A DNA stretch of 64,000 bases from Faecalibacterium sp. I4-1-79 (GTDB lineage: Bacteria; Bacillota; Clostridia; Oscillospirales; Ruminococcaceae): NCBI RefSeq assembly GCF_023347235.1, contig NZ_CP094467.1, positions 1,798,001 to 1,862,000 of the forward strand, read 5' to 3'. This document shows positions 1,082 through 53,743 of this stretch, piece after piece (the stretch's first letter is position 1; each line of letters opens with the position of its first letter). The translations under genes were made by a program, and so were the position numbers. Under the pieces are notes generated by a model. It was given only the letters and a program-made list of their open reading frames with translations, searched no databases and was not told where the DNA came from.

Positions 1082-4000
1082 TCAGAAATCTACTTCGTCA
1101 GAAGCAGCCGGAGCCTCAGCACCGGAGTTATCATCCTCCAGCACAGAAGGATCATCGAAACCTGCATCGGCGTCCTTGATGTTATAATCGGTCAGTTCGC
1201 TCTCCTGCACCACAGTCTCGGTGCCGGCAACATCACGCATATCAAAGCCAGTCTCTTCATCGTCGAAGTTCTGGCGCATGTCGATCTCGTTGCCGTCCTT
1301 GTCCTGCACGATCACGTCCAGACCCAGAGACTGCAGTTCCTTCAACATAACGCGGAAGGACTCGGGGATGCCGGGCTGCGGGATGGGCTCGCCCTTGACG
1401 ATGGCCTCGTAGGTCTTGACACGGCCCTCCACGTCGTCAGACTTGACAGTCAGGATCTCCTGCAGGGTGTAAGCGGCACCGTAAGCCTCCAGTGCCCAGA
1501 CCTCCATCTCGCCGAAGCGCTGACCGCCGAACTGAGCCTTGCCGCCCAGAGGCTGCTGGGTAACCAGAGAGTAGGGGCCGGTGGAGCGGGCGTGGATCTT
1601 ATCATCAACCAGGTGATGCAGCTTGAGGTAGTACATATAACCAACGGTAACGCGGTTATCGAACTTTTCACCGGTACGGCCATCGTAAACGGTGGTCTTG
1701 CCGTCACGATCCAGCTCGATCTTGGAGAAGTCAATGATGTGACCCTTCTCGCCCATGATCTTGGGGAGCTTGGTGGGATATGCGGGAGCATTCTCGCCGT
1801 GCCACATCTCGCGGGCGGTATCAAAGGTATCGCCGATGTCGTTCTCACGAGCAGAGTCAAAGACGGGGGTCATGACCTTGATGCCGCAGGCCTTGGCAGC
1901 GTAGCCGAGGTTGACTTCCAGCACCTGACCGATGTTCATACGGGAAGGCACGCCCAGCGGGTTCAGCACGATGTCCAGCGGAGTGCCGTCGGGCAGGTAG
2001 GGCATATCCTCCTGCGGCAGGATGCGGGAAACGACACCCTTGTTGCCGTGACGGCCTGCCATCTTATCGCCGACGCTGATCTTACGCTTCTGGGCGATAT
2101 AGCAGCGGACGACCTCGCGCACACCGGGCTGCAGCTCATCGCTGTTCTCCGGGGTAAAGACCTTGACATCCACAATGATGCCGTATGCGCCGTGGGGCAC
2201 ACGCAGAGAGGTGTCGCGCACCTCGCGGGCCTTCTCGCCGAAGATGGCGCGCAGCAGGCGCTCCTCAGCGGTCAGCTCGGTCTCGCCCTTCGGGGTGACC
2301 TTACCAACCAGAATGTCGCCGCTCTTGACCTCGGCACCGATGCGGATGATGCCGCGCTCGTCCAGATCCTTCAGGGCATCCTCAGAAACGTTGGGGATGT
2401 CGCGGGTGATCTCCTCGGGTCCCAGCTTGGTATCGCGGCTCTCGGTCTCGTACTCCTCGATGTGGATGGAGGTGTACACGTCCTCACGCACGATCTTCTC
2501 GTTCAGCAGAACGGCGTCCTCGTAGTTGTAGCCCTCCCAGGTCATGAAGCCGATCAGGGCGTTCTTACCCAGAGAGATCTCACCGTTGCGCATTGCGGGG
2601 CCATCGGCCAGCACCTGACCGGCGGTGACGGTCTCGCCCACTTCCACGATGGGGCGCTGGTTGATACAGGTGCCTGCGTTGGAGCGGGCAAACTTGATCA
2701 GGGAGTAATCCTCCAGAGCACCCTGCTCGTTGCGCACGACAATGTGGTCAGCATCGACCTTCTCCACAATGCCGTTGCTCTTGGCCAGCACAGCGGTGCC
2801 GGAGTCGGTAGCAGCCTTGTACTCCATACCGGTAGCAACGATGGGCTGCTGGGTGACCATCAGAGGCACTGCCTGACGCTGCATGTTAGAACCCATCAGA
2901 GCACGGTTACAGTCGTCGTTCTCCAGGAAGGGAATGCAGGCGGTAGCAACAGAAACCATCATACGCGGAGAAACGTCCATGTAATCGACCTTCTCTGCGT
3001 CGATTTCCAAGATCTCGTCGCGGCGGCGGGCAGACACACGGGGACGGATGAAGTGCTTGCCTTCGTCCAGCGGCTCGTTGGCCTGTGCCACAACGTACTC
3101 GTCCTCCACATCGGCGGTCATATACTCCACCTCGTCGGTGACGACCTGCTCGATGAGGTTGTTGTTCTCGTCGTAGATCTTCTTGACCTTGCGGTAGGGA
3201 GCCTCCACGAAGCCGTACTCGTTGATCTTGGCGTAGGATGCCAGATAGGAGATCAGACCGATGTTGGGGCCTTCAGGGGTCTCGATGGGGCACATACGGC
3301 CATAGTGGCTGTAATGAACGTCGCGGACTTCGAAGCCTGCGCGGTCACGGCTCAGACCGCCGGGGCCCAGAGCAGACAGACGGCGCTTGTGGGTCAGCTC
3401 CGCCAGAGGGTTGTTCTGATCCATGAACTGAGACAGCGGAGAGGAGCCGAAGAACTCCTTGATAGCTGCCACCACAGGACGGATGTTGATCAGTGCCTGC
3501 GGAGTGATAACGCTCTGATCCTGGCTCTGCAGGGTCATGCGCTCACGGATGACACGCTCCATACGGGAGAAGCCGATGCGGAACTGGTTCTGCAGCAGCT
3601 CGCCCACGCTGCGGATACGGCGGTTGCCCAGATGGTCGATATCATCGGTGGTGCCGATGCCGTAGCCCAGATCGTTCAGATAGTTGATGGAAGACAGGAT
3701 GTCGTCGATGGTGACGGTACGGCCGATGAGCAGGTCGTGATCCTTCTTCAGGCTCTCCATGACCTCCTCAGCGCTGGAAGCGTTATCAAGGATCTTGCGC
3801 AGCTCCTTGAGGTTGCAGCGCTCGTTGATGCCGCACTCCTTGACATCCACACCCTTGAATGCGGGGTAGTAGTTGTCGATGATGGCCTGTGCGTCCACGC
3901 AGCCGTTGGTGATGACCTTGACCTTGTGGGGCTTATCCTTCATGGGATCATCGATCTTCAGCACCACCAGATCCACGCCGGCGGCATCGATCTGCTCAGC

Positions 4001-34037: not shown

Positions 34038-34113
34038 GCAGGGTTAGCTCATCCGGTAGAGCGACTGCTTCCCAAGCAGTAGGCGGCGGGTTCGAGTCCC
34101 GTATCCTGCTCCA
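34038..34113 (+). tRNA. tRNA-Gly (anticodon CCC)
   Basis: A 76-nt tRNA with encoded CCA. Acceptor GCAGGGT/ATCCTGC (one G-U pair), D arm AGCTC..GAGC, anticodon arm ACTGC TTCCCAA GCAGT with anticodon CCC, T arm GCGGG TTCGAGT CCCGT, discriminator T. It reads GGG codons. Single-gene transcript with its own promoter and terminator. Confidence 0.95.
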
Positions 34114-34169: not shown

Positions 34170-34198
34170 TTGCTTCCGTTCGCAAATCATGCTATACT
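34170..34198 (+). promoter_or_regulatory. Promoter of tandem small RNA 1
   Basis: TTGCTT (34170-34175), 17-bp spacer ending TGC (extended -10), TATACT (34193-34198). Predicted start near 34205. Confidence 0.75.
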
Positions 34199-34204
34199 CC
34201 TATC

Positions 34205-34275
34205 AACAGAAATGCCCGGGCGTTTATCGCCCTCCTCGGTCTTGAAGACCGTGACAGCGCATTTCTGCTTTTTTA
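34205..34275 (+). ncRNA. Tandem tRNA-like small RNA, unit 1
   Basis: Predicted 70-nt RNA. A perfect 9-bp closing stem CAGAAATGC (34207-34215) / GCATTTCTG (34259-34267) encloses two hairpins: GGGCG TTTAT CGCCC (34218-34232) and CGGTC TTGAA GACCG (34237-34251). T6 at 34269-34274 follows the closing stem, so that stem is also the terminator. The second hairpin resembles the anticodon arm of bacterial tRNA-Ser(UGA), and the layout mimics a tRNA that has acceptor, D and anticodon arms but no T arm or CCA. Function unknown. No reading frame with a ribosome site fits inside. Confidence 0.6.
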
Positions 34276-34304
34276 TTGCCTTTGGTAGCAGCTTGTGTTA
34301 TGAT
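34276..34304 (+). promoter_or_regulatory. Promoter of tandem small RNA 2
   Basis: TTGCCT (34276-34281), 17-bp spacer, TATGAT (34299-34304). It begins right after the T-run of unit 1. Confidence 0.7.
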
Positions 34305-34311
34305 AAAAAGT

Positions 34312-34376
34312 AGAAAGCAGCTTAGGGGCGTTACTGCCCTGCTCGGTCTTGAATACCGTGGTAAGGCTGCTTTTAT
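34312..34376 (+). ncRNA. Tandem tRNA-like small RNA, unit 2
   Basis: Predicted 65-nt RNA with the same plan as unit 1. Closing stem AAAGCAGC (34314-34321) / GCTGCTTT (34366-34373) is perfect but differs in sequence from unit 1, so base pairing rather than sequence is kept. Inside: GGGC GTTACT GCCC (34326-34339) and CGGT CTTGAAT ACCG (34344-34358). The segment between the stems is conserved with unit 1 (GCCCT.CTCGGTCTTGAA, then ACCGTG). The closing stem ends in a T-rich tail (TTTTATTTTT). Confidence 0.6.
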
Positions 34377-34382
34377 TTTTGC

Positions 34383-34411
34383 TTGCTTTTAACGGCAGAC
34401 CATGCTATAAC
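34383..34411 (+). promoter_or_regulatory. Promoter of tandem small RNA 3
   Basis: TTGCTT (34383-34388), 17-bp spacer ending TGC, TATAAC (34406-34411). Same architecture and phase as the two preceding units. Confidence 0.65.
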
Positions 34412-34417
34412 TTTGAG

Positions 34418-34489
34418 CAGAGATTTTCCGGCTGTCTACTCCTTGAATCTTCAGATTCTACGTGGGTTTCGCCGGAGGCTTTATTTTTT
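34418..34489 (+). ncRNA. Tandem small RNA, unit 3 (diverged)
   Basis: Predicted 70-nt RNA. Closing stem TCCGGC (34427-34432) / GCCGGA (34471-34476), inner hairpin ACTC..GAATC TTCA GATTC..GGGT (34438-34467), then GGCTTTATTTTTT. It lacks the first inner hairpin and the tRNA-Ser-like loop of units 1 and 2, but promoter, length and terminator style match. It converges on the flavodiiron protein gene, whose terminator begins 6 bp downstream. Confidence 0.45.
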
Positions 34490-34494
34490 GCTGC

Positions 34495-34536
34495 AAAAAA
34501 CACTCCCGGGCTTTCCAAAAAAGCCCGGGAGTGTTT
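34495..34536 (-). terminator. Terminator of the flavodiiron protein gene
   Basis: Perfect stem of about 17 bp, AAACACTCCCGGGCTTT on plus pairing with AAAGCCCGGGAGTGTTT, with TTTTTT on the minus strand. Confidence 0.92.
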
Positions 34537-34560
34537 GCGTTCAACTGATTTTATATCGTG

Positions 34561-35742
34561 TTACTTTGCCACAAGTTCGGCGGCAAGGGCGTCCATCTGT
34601 GCCTCGGCAGCGGCGTTGGCGGCAGAGCGGATGGTGACCACGTTCTCGCAGAGGGTGATGTTCTTCATGCTCTCCAGCTCTGCACGCATAAGCTTTGCAG
34701 CCATGGGTGCCCAAGTGCCGTTTTCCATCAGGCCGACGGTGCGGTTCTGGAAGTTCTTGGTCTTGAGGTGGGTCAGCAGATTCTCCATCGGCGGGAAGAG
34801 GAAACCATCGTAGGTGGCGCAAGCCAGCACGATCTTGCCGCAGCGGAAAGCCTCGGTGACAGCATAGGACACATCGGTACGGGTCAGATCCATCTCCACC
34901 ACCTTTGCGCCCTGTGCGCGCAGCTTTTCGGCCATGGTATGGGCGGCGGCGCGGGTGTGGCCGTGGATGGAGGCGCTGGCCACCAGGATCTTTTCCGGCT
35001 CCTCTGCCTTATAGCTGGACCAGAGATCGTAGTAGTTCAGGTACTTGCCCAGATCGCCGGTAAGCACCGGGCCGTGCAGCGGGCAGATAGTCTTGATGTC
35101 CAGTGCCGCAGCCTTTTTGAGCAATGCCTGCACCTGCGGGCCGTACTTGCCCACAATGTTCAGGTAGTAGCGGCGGGCTTCGCTGGCCCAGTCGGCGTTT
35201 TCGTCAAACTTTGCCACGGCACCAAAGCGGCCAAAGCCATCGGCAGAGAACAGTACCTTCTCGCTGCTCTCATAGCTGACCATGACCTCCGGCCAGTGCA
35301 CCATGGGAGCAAACACAAAGGTGAGGGTGTGGGTGCCAAGGCTCAGGCTCTCGCCGTCCTTCACCACCACGCGGCGCTCCAAGGCAATGGCATCTGCGCC
35401 AAAGAACTGCTCCATATACTGGAAGGTCTTGGCGTTGCCAACCACCTGCATCTCAGGGTAAAGGGCTGCCAGCTTTGCCACGTTGGCACCGTGGTCCGGC
35501 TCCATGTGGGAGACTACCAGATAGGCGGGCTTGCGGCCGCCCAGTGCCTCGGCAAGGTTTTCCAGCCAAGGCTCGGTAGCGCGGGCGTCCACCGTGTCCA
35601 GAATGGTGGTCTTTTCGTCCAGAATGACATAGGAATTATAGCTGACCCCGGTGGGCACCGGATACTGACTCTCGAACAGGTCGATGGTGGTATCGTCCAC
35701 GCCCACACCAAGGATGGCTTCACTGATTTTTTTCATGCTCAT
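34561..35742 (-). CDS. Flavodiiron protein (A-type flavoprotein, FprA-like)
   Basis: A 393-residue protein with an N-terminal metallo-beta-lactamase-like diiron domain and a C-terminal flavodoxin domain. The diiron ligands HxExDH are His79, Glu81, Asp83, His84 (VVSHMEPDHG), with further ligands in MVHWPEVM, SADGFG and PLHGPVL. The FMN loop is ASIHGHTRAAA. Such proteins reduce O2 to water or NO to N2O with electrons from rubredoxin or F420, protecting anaerobes. Faecalibacterium-type cells are very oxygen-sensitive, so O2 reduction is the likely role. AGGAG lies 10 bp before the ATG at 35742. No rubredoxin gene is adjacent. Confidence 0.92.
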   Translation of the reverse strand: MSMKKISEAILGVGVDDTTIDLFESQYPVPTGVSYNSYVILDEKTTILDTVDARATEPWLENLAEALGGRKPAYLVVSHMEPDHGANVAKLAALYPEMQVVGNAKTFQYMEQFFGADAIALERRVVVKDGESLSLGTHTLTFVFAPMVHWPEVMVSYESSEKVLFSADGFGRFGAVAKFDENADWASEARRYYLNIVGKYGPQVQALLKKAAALDIKTICPLHGPVLTGDLGKYLNYYDLWSSYKAEEPEKILVASASIHGHTRAAAHTMAEKLRAQGAKVVEMDLTRTDVSYAVTEAFRCGKIVLACATYDGFLFPPMENLLTHLKTKNFQNRTVGLMENGTWAPMAAKLMRAELESMKNITLCENVVTIRSAANAAAEAQMDALAAELVAK

Positions 35743-53459: not shown

Positions 53460-53474
53460 TTTTGTCGAACTGAA

Positions 53475-53690
53475 CAGAAAACAACAGGTGCGTTCCGTCA
53501 CTTTGCCCCATCGGGCGGCGGCAGGAACGTTAAAAGGGAAGCGGGTGCAAATCCCGCACGATCTCGTCACTGTGATAAGGGAGTCCACTGTCAGGGTGCT
53601 TTTGCACCGGTCACTGAGCCATCCGGCTTGGGAAGGCGGCAGCGGGCGTTGAGCTTTGAGTCAGGAAACCTGCCTGCTGTTGGTACCGGG
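53475..53690 (+). promoter_or_regulatory. Cobalamin riboswitch
   Basis: AdoCbl-class features in order: ACAGGTGCG at the 5' side, GGGAAGCGGGTGCAAATCCC and CGTCACTGTGA in the core, CACTGAGCC and GGGAAGGC, and the B12 box AGTCAGGAAACCTGCCT (53659-53675). It controls the cbiK-to-cbiE operon through the following terminator. Confidence 0.95.
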
Positions 53691-53743
53691 GCTTTGCCGC
53701 CCCAGATCACGAGGAATTGGTTGTACCAAAAAGCCTGTAAGAT

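Follow-up and report, generated by a model that had tools for sequence, protein, structure and literature searches.

What is encoded by the short tandem units that separate tRNA-Gly(CCC) from a convergent gene in Faecalibacterium sp. I4-1-79, and what might the encoded RNAs be for? The window, meaning the whole 64,000-nucleotide stretch of DNA analysed, carries three such units on the + strand with a period of about 107 bp. To their left lies tRNA-Gly(CCC) (34038..34113, + strand), called by ARAGORN and scoring 62.7 bits with the Rfam tRNA model, and to their right a minus-strand gene (34561..35742) that we take to be an fprA-like flavodiiron protein gene, with relatives present in 31/31 genus genomes. 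A perfect 17-bp inverted repeat in the gap between the array and this gene (34498..34536), also present at the empty site of related genomes, is probably the terminator of the fprA-like gene.

Each unit consists of a promoter with a 17-bp spacer and an extended -10 motif (TGN, 5′ of the hexamer), followed by an RNA whose terminal stem runs into a T-run. The promoter of unit 1 (34170..34198; TTGCTT, TATACT, TGC) would start transcription at about 34205, and the RNA (34207..34277) is closed by a 9-bp terminal stem (34207-34215/34259-34267) enclosing the hairpins GGGCG-CGCCC (34218-34232) and CGGT-CTTGAAG-ACCG (34237-34251), with a T-run at 34268-34277. Unit 2 has its promoter at 34276..34304 (TTGCCT, TATGAT, TGT) and its RNA at 34313..34381, with the terminal stem GAAAGCAGC/GCTGCTTTT (34313-34321/34366-34374), hairpins at 34326-34339 and 34344-34358, and a T-run ending at 34381. 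The promoter of unit 3 lies at 34383..34411 (TTGCTT, TATAAC, TGC) and its RNA at 34421..34490, where the terminal stem (34425-34432/34471-34478) surrounds the core CTACTCCTTGAATCTTCAGATTCTACGTGGG (34436-34466), which contains a GAATC-TTCA-GATTC hairpin, and leads into a T-run at 34479-34490. All of these features are on the + strand. Against TTGACA/TATAAT the promoters score, counted by eye, 8, 9, and 8 of 12 in units 1, 2, and 3, and a loose scan requiring at least 9/12 therefore detects unit 2 alone in the window.

The original prediction of three separately driven promoter-RNA-terminator units is confirmed by this anatomy, although the three are not alike. Units 1 and 2 are homologous, sharing a 60-nt repeat with 72% identity at a spacing of 107, and both follow a plan of a terminal stem plus two hairpins, termed type A (71.1 and 77.8 bits with model R2, in which both units are included). 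Unit 3 follows a distinct plan, a terminal stem plus one interrupted hairpin, termed type B (80.7 bits with model R1, in which unit 3 is included), so the array reads A, A, B. Units 1 and 2 fold better than shuffled sequences (z -4.97 and -2.74, respectively), with 0/200 shuffles equally good in either case, and unit 3 does so only slightly (z -1.46; 17/200).

The array belongs to no family in the collections searched. ARAGORN called tRNA-Gly(CCC) as the sole tRNA in the window and none of the array units, and Rfam 15 gave no match to the array at gathering score, the tRNA model RF00005 included, so the proposed tRNA-like plan is not supported. The sub-threshold matches look like chance; the strongest are one to a terminator (34493-34538) and one to tRNA-Sec on the minus strand, at 18.7 bits against a cut-off of 47. 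Elsewhere in the window, Rfam places a cobalamin riboswitch at 53472-53691 (98.9 bits). Rfam also matched nothing in 16 phage-module loci of the kind described below, except one tRNA in L142, and nothing in L184 or L185. No description of such RNAs was found in the openly accessible published literature, including the available portions of PMC5512222, PMC5576092, and PMC11980606, and the words 'antisense' and 'promoter' are both absent from the main texts of PMC5576092 and PMC5512222. The class thus appears to be undescribed so far, as had been suspected.

Within the genus the array is solitary. It was found by blastn once in its own genome and in 0/30 other genus genomes, and where the gap between tRNA-Gly and fprA is visible (L003, L006, L007, and L008), the array is missing and about 100 unrelated bases stand in its place; judged from these sites, the array is an insertion. 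The roughly 100 bp at the empty site in L006-L008 contain a TTGACA-like box of their own and no matching unit. Model searches of 197 family and 31 genus genomes, of the kind that had been proposed, turned up no further convincing A or B copy among the hits inspected. In the family set, R2 scored in four further genomes (22-24.3 bits) and R1 in two (24.9-30.5 bits), and inspection of these six weak loci showed no array-like context; in the genus set, each model scored in four further genomes (R2, 19.4-22.7 bits; R1, 21.4-26.5 bits). Scans of GTDB contigs returned 0 matches to the B pattern and four to the A pattern, in records titled as proteobacteria. A plasmid search gave one 27-base match, judged to be no relative.

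The only relatives of types A and B that were found come from contigs labelled as phage: L004, found by blastn in phage records, and L035-L038, found by pattern scans of IMG/VR. The IMG/VR scan for the A pattern returned 59 stretches, 56 of which were rejected by eye as having no flanking hairpin, leaving L036-L038 as real. In L004 and L036-L038 (L036 and L127 are paired handles) a single promoter serves an A unit and the B unit behind it, L035/L126 carries two B units, and a third type, C, is added in L037/L038 and occurs also in L096. In every phage A/B copy the RNA strand is opposite a large open frame (3,212 codons in L036; 3,396 in L037), placing the units antisense in linkers of polyvalent proteins of about 3,200 residues. 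The linker that holds the A/B units directly follows an LPD3 module in L004, L126, and L127, with LPD3 passing the Pfam cut-off in L126 and L127, and a MuF_C module with its C unit in L037/L038. Type B of the window shares identical runs of 17-18 nt with the phage copies. The same A+B linker joins different modules in L036 and L037, as if modules had been swapped beside the RNA units.

Comparison of copies indicates that types A, B, and C have each kept their pairing through compensatory changes, which bears out the earlier claim of preserved pairing in units 1 and 2. In type A (four sequences), 64/64 cells are paired, in a table that includes placeholder Ns, and both sides changed in 5/16 pairs (9 cells), with slid controls at 37-60% paired. 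In type B (five sequences), 98.9% of 90 cells are paired and both sides changed in 4/18 pairs (7 cells), with slid controls at 26-64%. The terminal stems of A and B copies diverge in sequence while keeping their pairing. Type C (L121, L122, L140, and L144) has both sides changed in 11/26 pairs and 93.3% of cells paired, with slid controls at 29-45%; in type D, which is encountered below, covariation is no greater than in shuffles.

Antisense units extend well beyond the A/B relatives, to the ends of MuF_C and LPD3 modules in general. The MuF_C set was drawn from IMG/VR, one phage record, 16/295 genomes of the order, and 7/391 of the class (one shared), and the LPD3 set from 12/295 genomes of the order; the order and class are presumably Oscillospirales and Clostridia. 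Both strands were scanned for a promoter matching at least 9/12, a spacer of 16-18, a stem of 12 or more pairs between the ends, and a T-run. An antisense unit lies at the module end in 21/24 MuF_C instances and a sense unit in 0/24. When the 21 units were compared with synonymous-codon shuffles, 0/200 were as good in 17 and 1-3/200 in the remaining four, an excess at the codon level. The three instances with no detected unit are L132, L133, and L136, and in L132 a type-D model gives two antisense matches. Class-level MuF_C loci carry an antisense unit in 6/6 cases, five of them shuffle-tested (0-5/100 as good). Among LPD3 loci, 10/13 have a unit at the module end (0-4/100 shuffles as good in those 10); L152 and L153 have none there, and L156 was not counted because its hits precede the LPD3 module and its module end is weak, with 18/100 shuffles as good. 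No homologue of A or B was found at the other LPD3 or MuF_C loci.

Under strict settings, 47 loci with some overlap among them (201,708 bp per strand) gave 45 antisense matches, 41 of them distinct, and 0 sense matches, with a spacer of 17 in all 41; the same settings gave 0 matches on 371,916 bp of background strands. The window units and the A/B copies in L004, L114, and L126 fail these settings because their -35 elements are weak, weaker in A/B than in the MuF_C copies. From these sequences, MuF_C and LPD3 modules appear typically to end with an antisense sigma70 promoter, a 17-bp spacer, a stem-closed RNA of 60-75 nt, and a T-run. In L149, L158, L161, L162, L124, L125, L135, and L138 the large ORF holds extra antisense units at a distance from the queried domain, which makes it probable that further kinds of module have RNAs of this sort. 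Off the known modules, a promoter-like site lies on the + strand of L183 at about 3079-3200, and the RNA after it would fold into a two-part hairpin of very high stability (-40.0 kcal/mol).

RNAs linked to MuF_C have a conserved 7-nt inner hairpin loop, AAUUGGA, closed by a CG, GC, or UA pair; in a hand-picked list covering part of the loci, the pattern is present in 20/22 embedded and 6/7 stand-alone copies. This hairpin RNA also lies antisense at the MuF_C end of the E. coli K-12 phage L165 (42.5 bits, weak promoter), and the O157:H7 prophage L186 has a version that, by eye, is diverged yet paired (17 bits, weak promoter), with no ncRNA in its annotation. A 211-bp stretch of L165 matches 431/5,426 E. 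coli genomes, and in 9 the match spans 80% or more of the stretch, counts that refer to the gene region and not to the RNA. Similar stems occur in Pasteurella phage L164 and Acinetobacter plasmid L166. According to the available portion of PMC5512222, MuF_C is a PBECR-type (BECR) domain that is predicted to be a metal-independent RNase and is believed to travel in the virion and be injected, and LPD3 has no assigned function. The AlphaFold model of MuF_C has a pLDDT of 54, and that of LPD3 (pLDDT 69) gave no significant PDB match, the best VIA-align Z being 3.4; PADLOC gave no family for three modules.

The units also recur away from any module. The type-D model, run on 396 family genomes, found 11 places in 10 genomes at an E-value of 1e-4 or better. 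Seven of these are antisense to a full or partial MuF_C frame (L167-L170 and L175-L177; L168 is on a short contig), and four, in 4/396 genomes, are stand-alone: L178, whose three units follow in tandem at 142-bp intervals, every promoter scoring 12/12; L179, a single unit in the same genus as L178, with flanking ORFs similar by eye; L171/L184, with four tandem units of different types spaced 107-127 bp apart; and L180, a single unit. The 4.1-kb contig L184 holds, at 980-1560, a collection-like set of four stand-alone units of at least three RNA types. The MuF_C profile found no domain in the stand-alone stretches, the best match being a C-terminal echo (E 0.012) at the very position of the RNA. 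The genome of the window likewise has no MuF_C or LPD3 match, and a search of the 31 genus genomes for A5 (LPD3-type), run with no positive control, found nothing. Stand-alone copies elsewhere, and the lack of either module in its own genome, make the window array one case of a recurrent situation in which the RNAs are kept without the module.

These sequences very probably represent an undescribed class of structured RNAs nested antisense in phage protein modules, and the earlier idea that they form a family of regulators, each expressed independently, is judged right, with transcription itself inferred. The most likely role, at about even odds, is that the RNAs serve immunity, as antitoxins against injected phage modules, with the window carrying an orphan immunity array. 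The host RNA polymerase would read the antisense promoter from a prophage or a chromosomal array, independent of the phage late genes, and lysogens would therefore hold the RNA before a module is injected. Each RNA may then neutralise its cognate module in trans by binding it or occupying its active site, and the window array would be a set of stand-alone immunity RNAs retained without the toxin gene. The fuller proposal, in which modules each carry a nested antisense antidote RNA and bacteria, that of the window included, collect copies in tandem arrays as RNA-only immunity, is offered tentatively. The persistence of stand-alone arrays and the preserved folding favour a trans-acting structured RNA, though they are no proof of one. 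Against this reading, no activity is known for LPD3, the neighbour of A/B in three contigs; the A and B copies themselves fail the strict scan, type D has no excess of covariation, and A/B homologues were not found at other LPD3 or MuF_C loci; 3/13 LPD3 loci and 3/24 MuF_C instances have no detected unit; and an antisense RNA could merely repress the module mRNA.

That last possibility, antisense silencing, is the main rival to neutralisation of the module, although it appears unlikely. The RNAs would pair with module mRNA in cis, in the manner of type I systems, and orphan arrays would silence incoming mRNAs in trans. By its position, a phage RNA is fully complementary to the module mRNA, and the 17-18 nt runs identical between window type B and the phage copies fit such pairing. 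Terminal stems that drift while keeping their pairing erode complementarity to phage mRNA; this is not decisive, because the terminal stem also serves termination. An RNA directed against mRNA would also fail to stop a ready-made injected protein.

An improbable reading is that the RNA is the cofactor, guide, or substrate of the module, for example by binding to the predicted RNase and guiding or priming it. The AAUUGGA loop with covarying closing pairs in both embedded and stand-alone MuF_C-type copies would suit it, whereas stand-alone arrays with no detected module gene would not. It is less probable still that the elements act mainly as DNA, as recombination joints for module exchange with an incidental promoter. 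The linker that L036 and L037 share between differing neighbour modules, and the replacement of about 100 bp by the array at the tRNA-Gly site, point that way, but joints would not explain the 17-bp spacer in 41/41 distinct strict hits, the near-consensus hexamers, the T-runs, or the antisense-only orientation.

Two further readings deserve very little weight. The original prediction likened the type A arm CGGTCTTGAAnACCG to the anticodon arm of tRNA-Ser(UGA) and proposed a decoy for a tRNA-Ser-binding factor; the loop yUUGARn on a CGGU/ACCG stem is kept in 4/4 type A copies, but the units are not called as tRNAs by ARAGORN or Rfam, the CTTGAA arm is absent from unit 3 and from types B, C, and D, and type A has its relatives among phage-module antisense RNAs, which makes a decoy scarcely credible. 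An RNA anti-CRISPR (Racr), that is, a solitary CRISPR-repeat mimic, would agree with a small RNA gene that phages carry under a promoter of its own and with the suggestion, in the available portion of PMC5512222, that PBECR domains target CRISPR RNAs, but is highly doubtful. Searches with models R1 and R2 found nothing repeat-like elsewhere in the genome of the window.

Should the proposed immunity role be correct, effector and immunity would travel as one cassette, with the antidote RNA on the opposite strand of the module, and the survival of lysogens exposed to injected RNases would be explained without a protein immunity gene. Bacteria would then possess immunity arrays made of RNA alone, which searches for defence proteins would overlook. 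Several dozen RNA/module pairs, some in E. coli K-12 phages, are open to direct test.

Polymorphic toxin systems include orphan immunity genes that form tandem collections without the toxin. The array resembles these in carrying tandem determinants without a toxin and differs in that the determinants are RNAs. The embedded RNAs lie within genes for MuF polymorphic toxins and polyvalent proteins, as presented in the available portions of PMC5576092 and PMC5512222. Racr, as described in the available portion of PMC10651486, is likewise a small phage-encoded RNA gene in phage-host conflict, whereas the RNAs reported here have no detected repeat mimicry and lie antisense inside protein modules. 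The window array shares with the phage-module antisense RNAs all three features of the class, namely antisense relatives, a promoter, stem, and T-run, and compensatory changes.

Like type I toxin-antitoxin systems, the phage copies set a toxin-like gene on mobile elements opposite a short, overlapping antisense RNA that has a promoter and a terminator of its own, an overlap confined to them since the window has no antisense module gene. Unlike in type I systems, the protein is no small hydrophobic peptide but a module within ORFs that reach about 3,400 residues, the RNA structure is conserved, and stand-alone arrays exist without the gene. The type III antitoxins ToxI, CptI, and TenpI are structured RNAs paired with an RNase and encoded as a repeat array upstream of the toxin. 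Here too a structured RNA is paired with a predicted RNase, but it lies antisense at the end of a coding module, as a single unit with its own promoter and not as an upstream co-transcribed repeat array. The anatomy thus recalls type I antitoxins and the proposed action type III, while each comparison fails in one defining feature.
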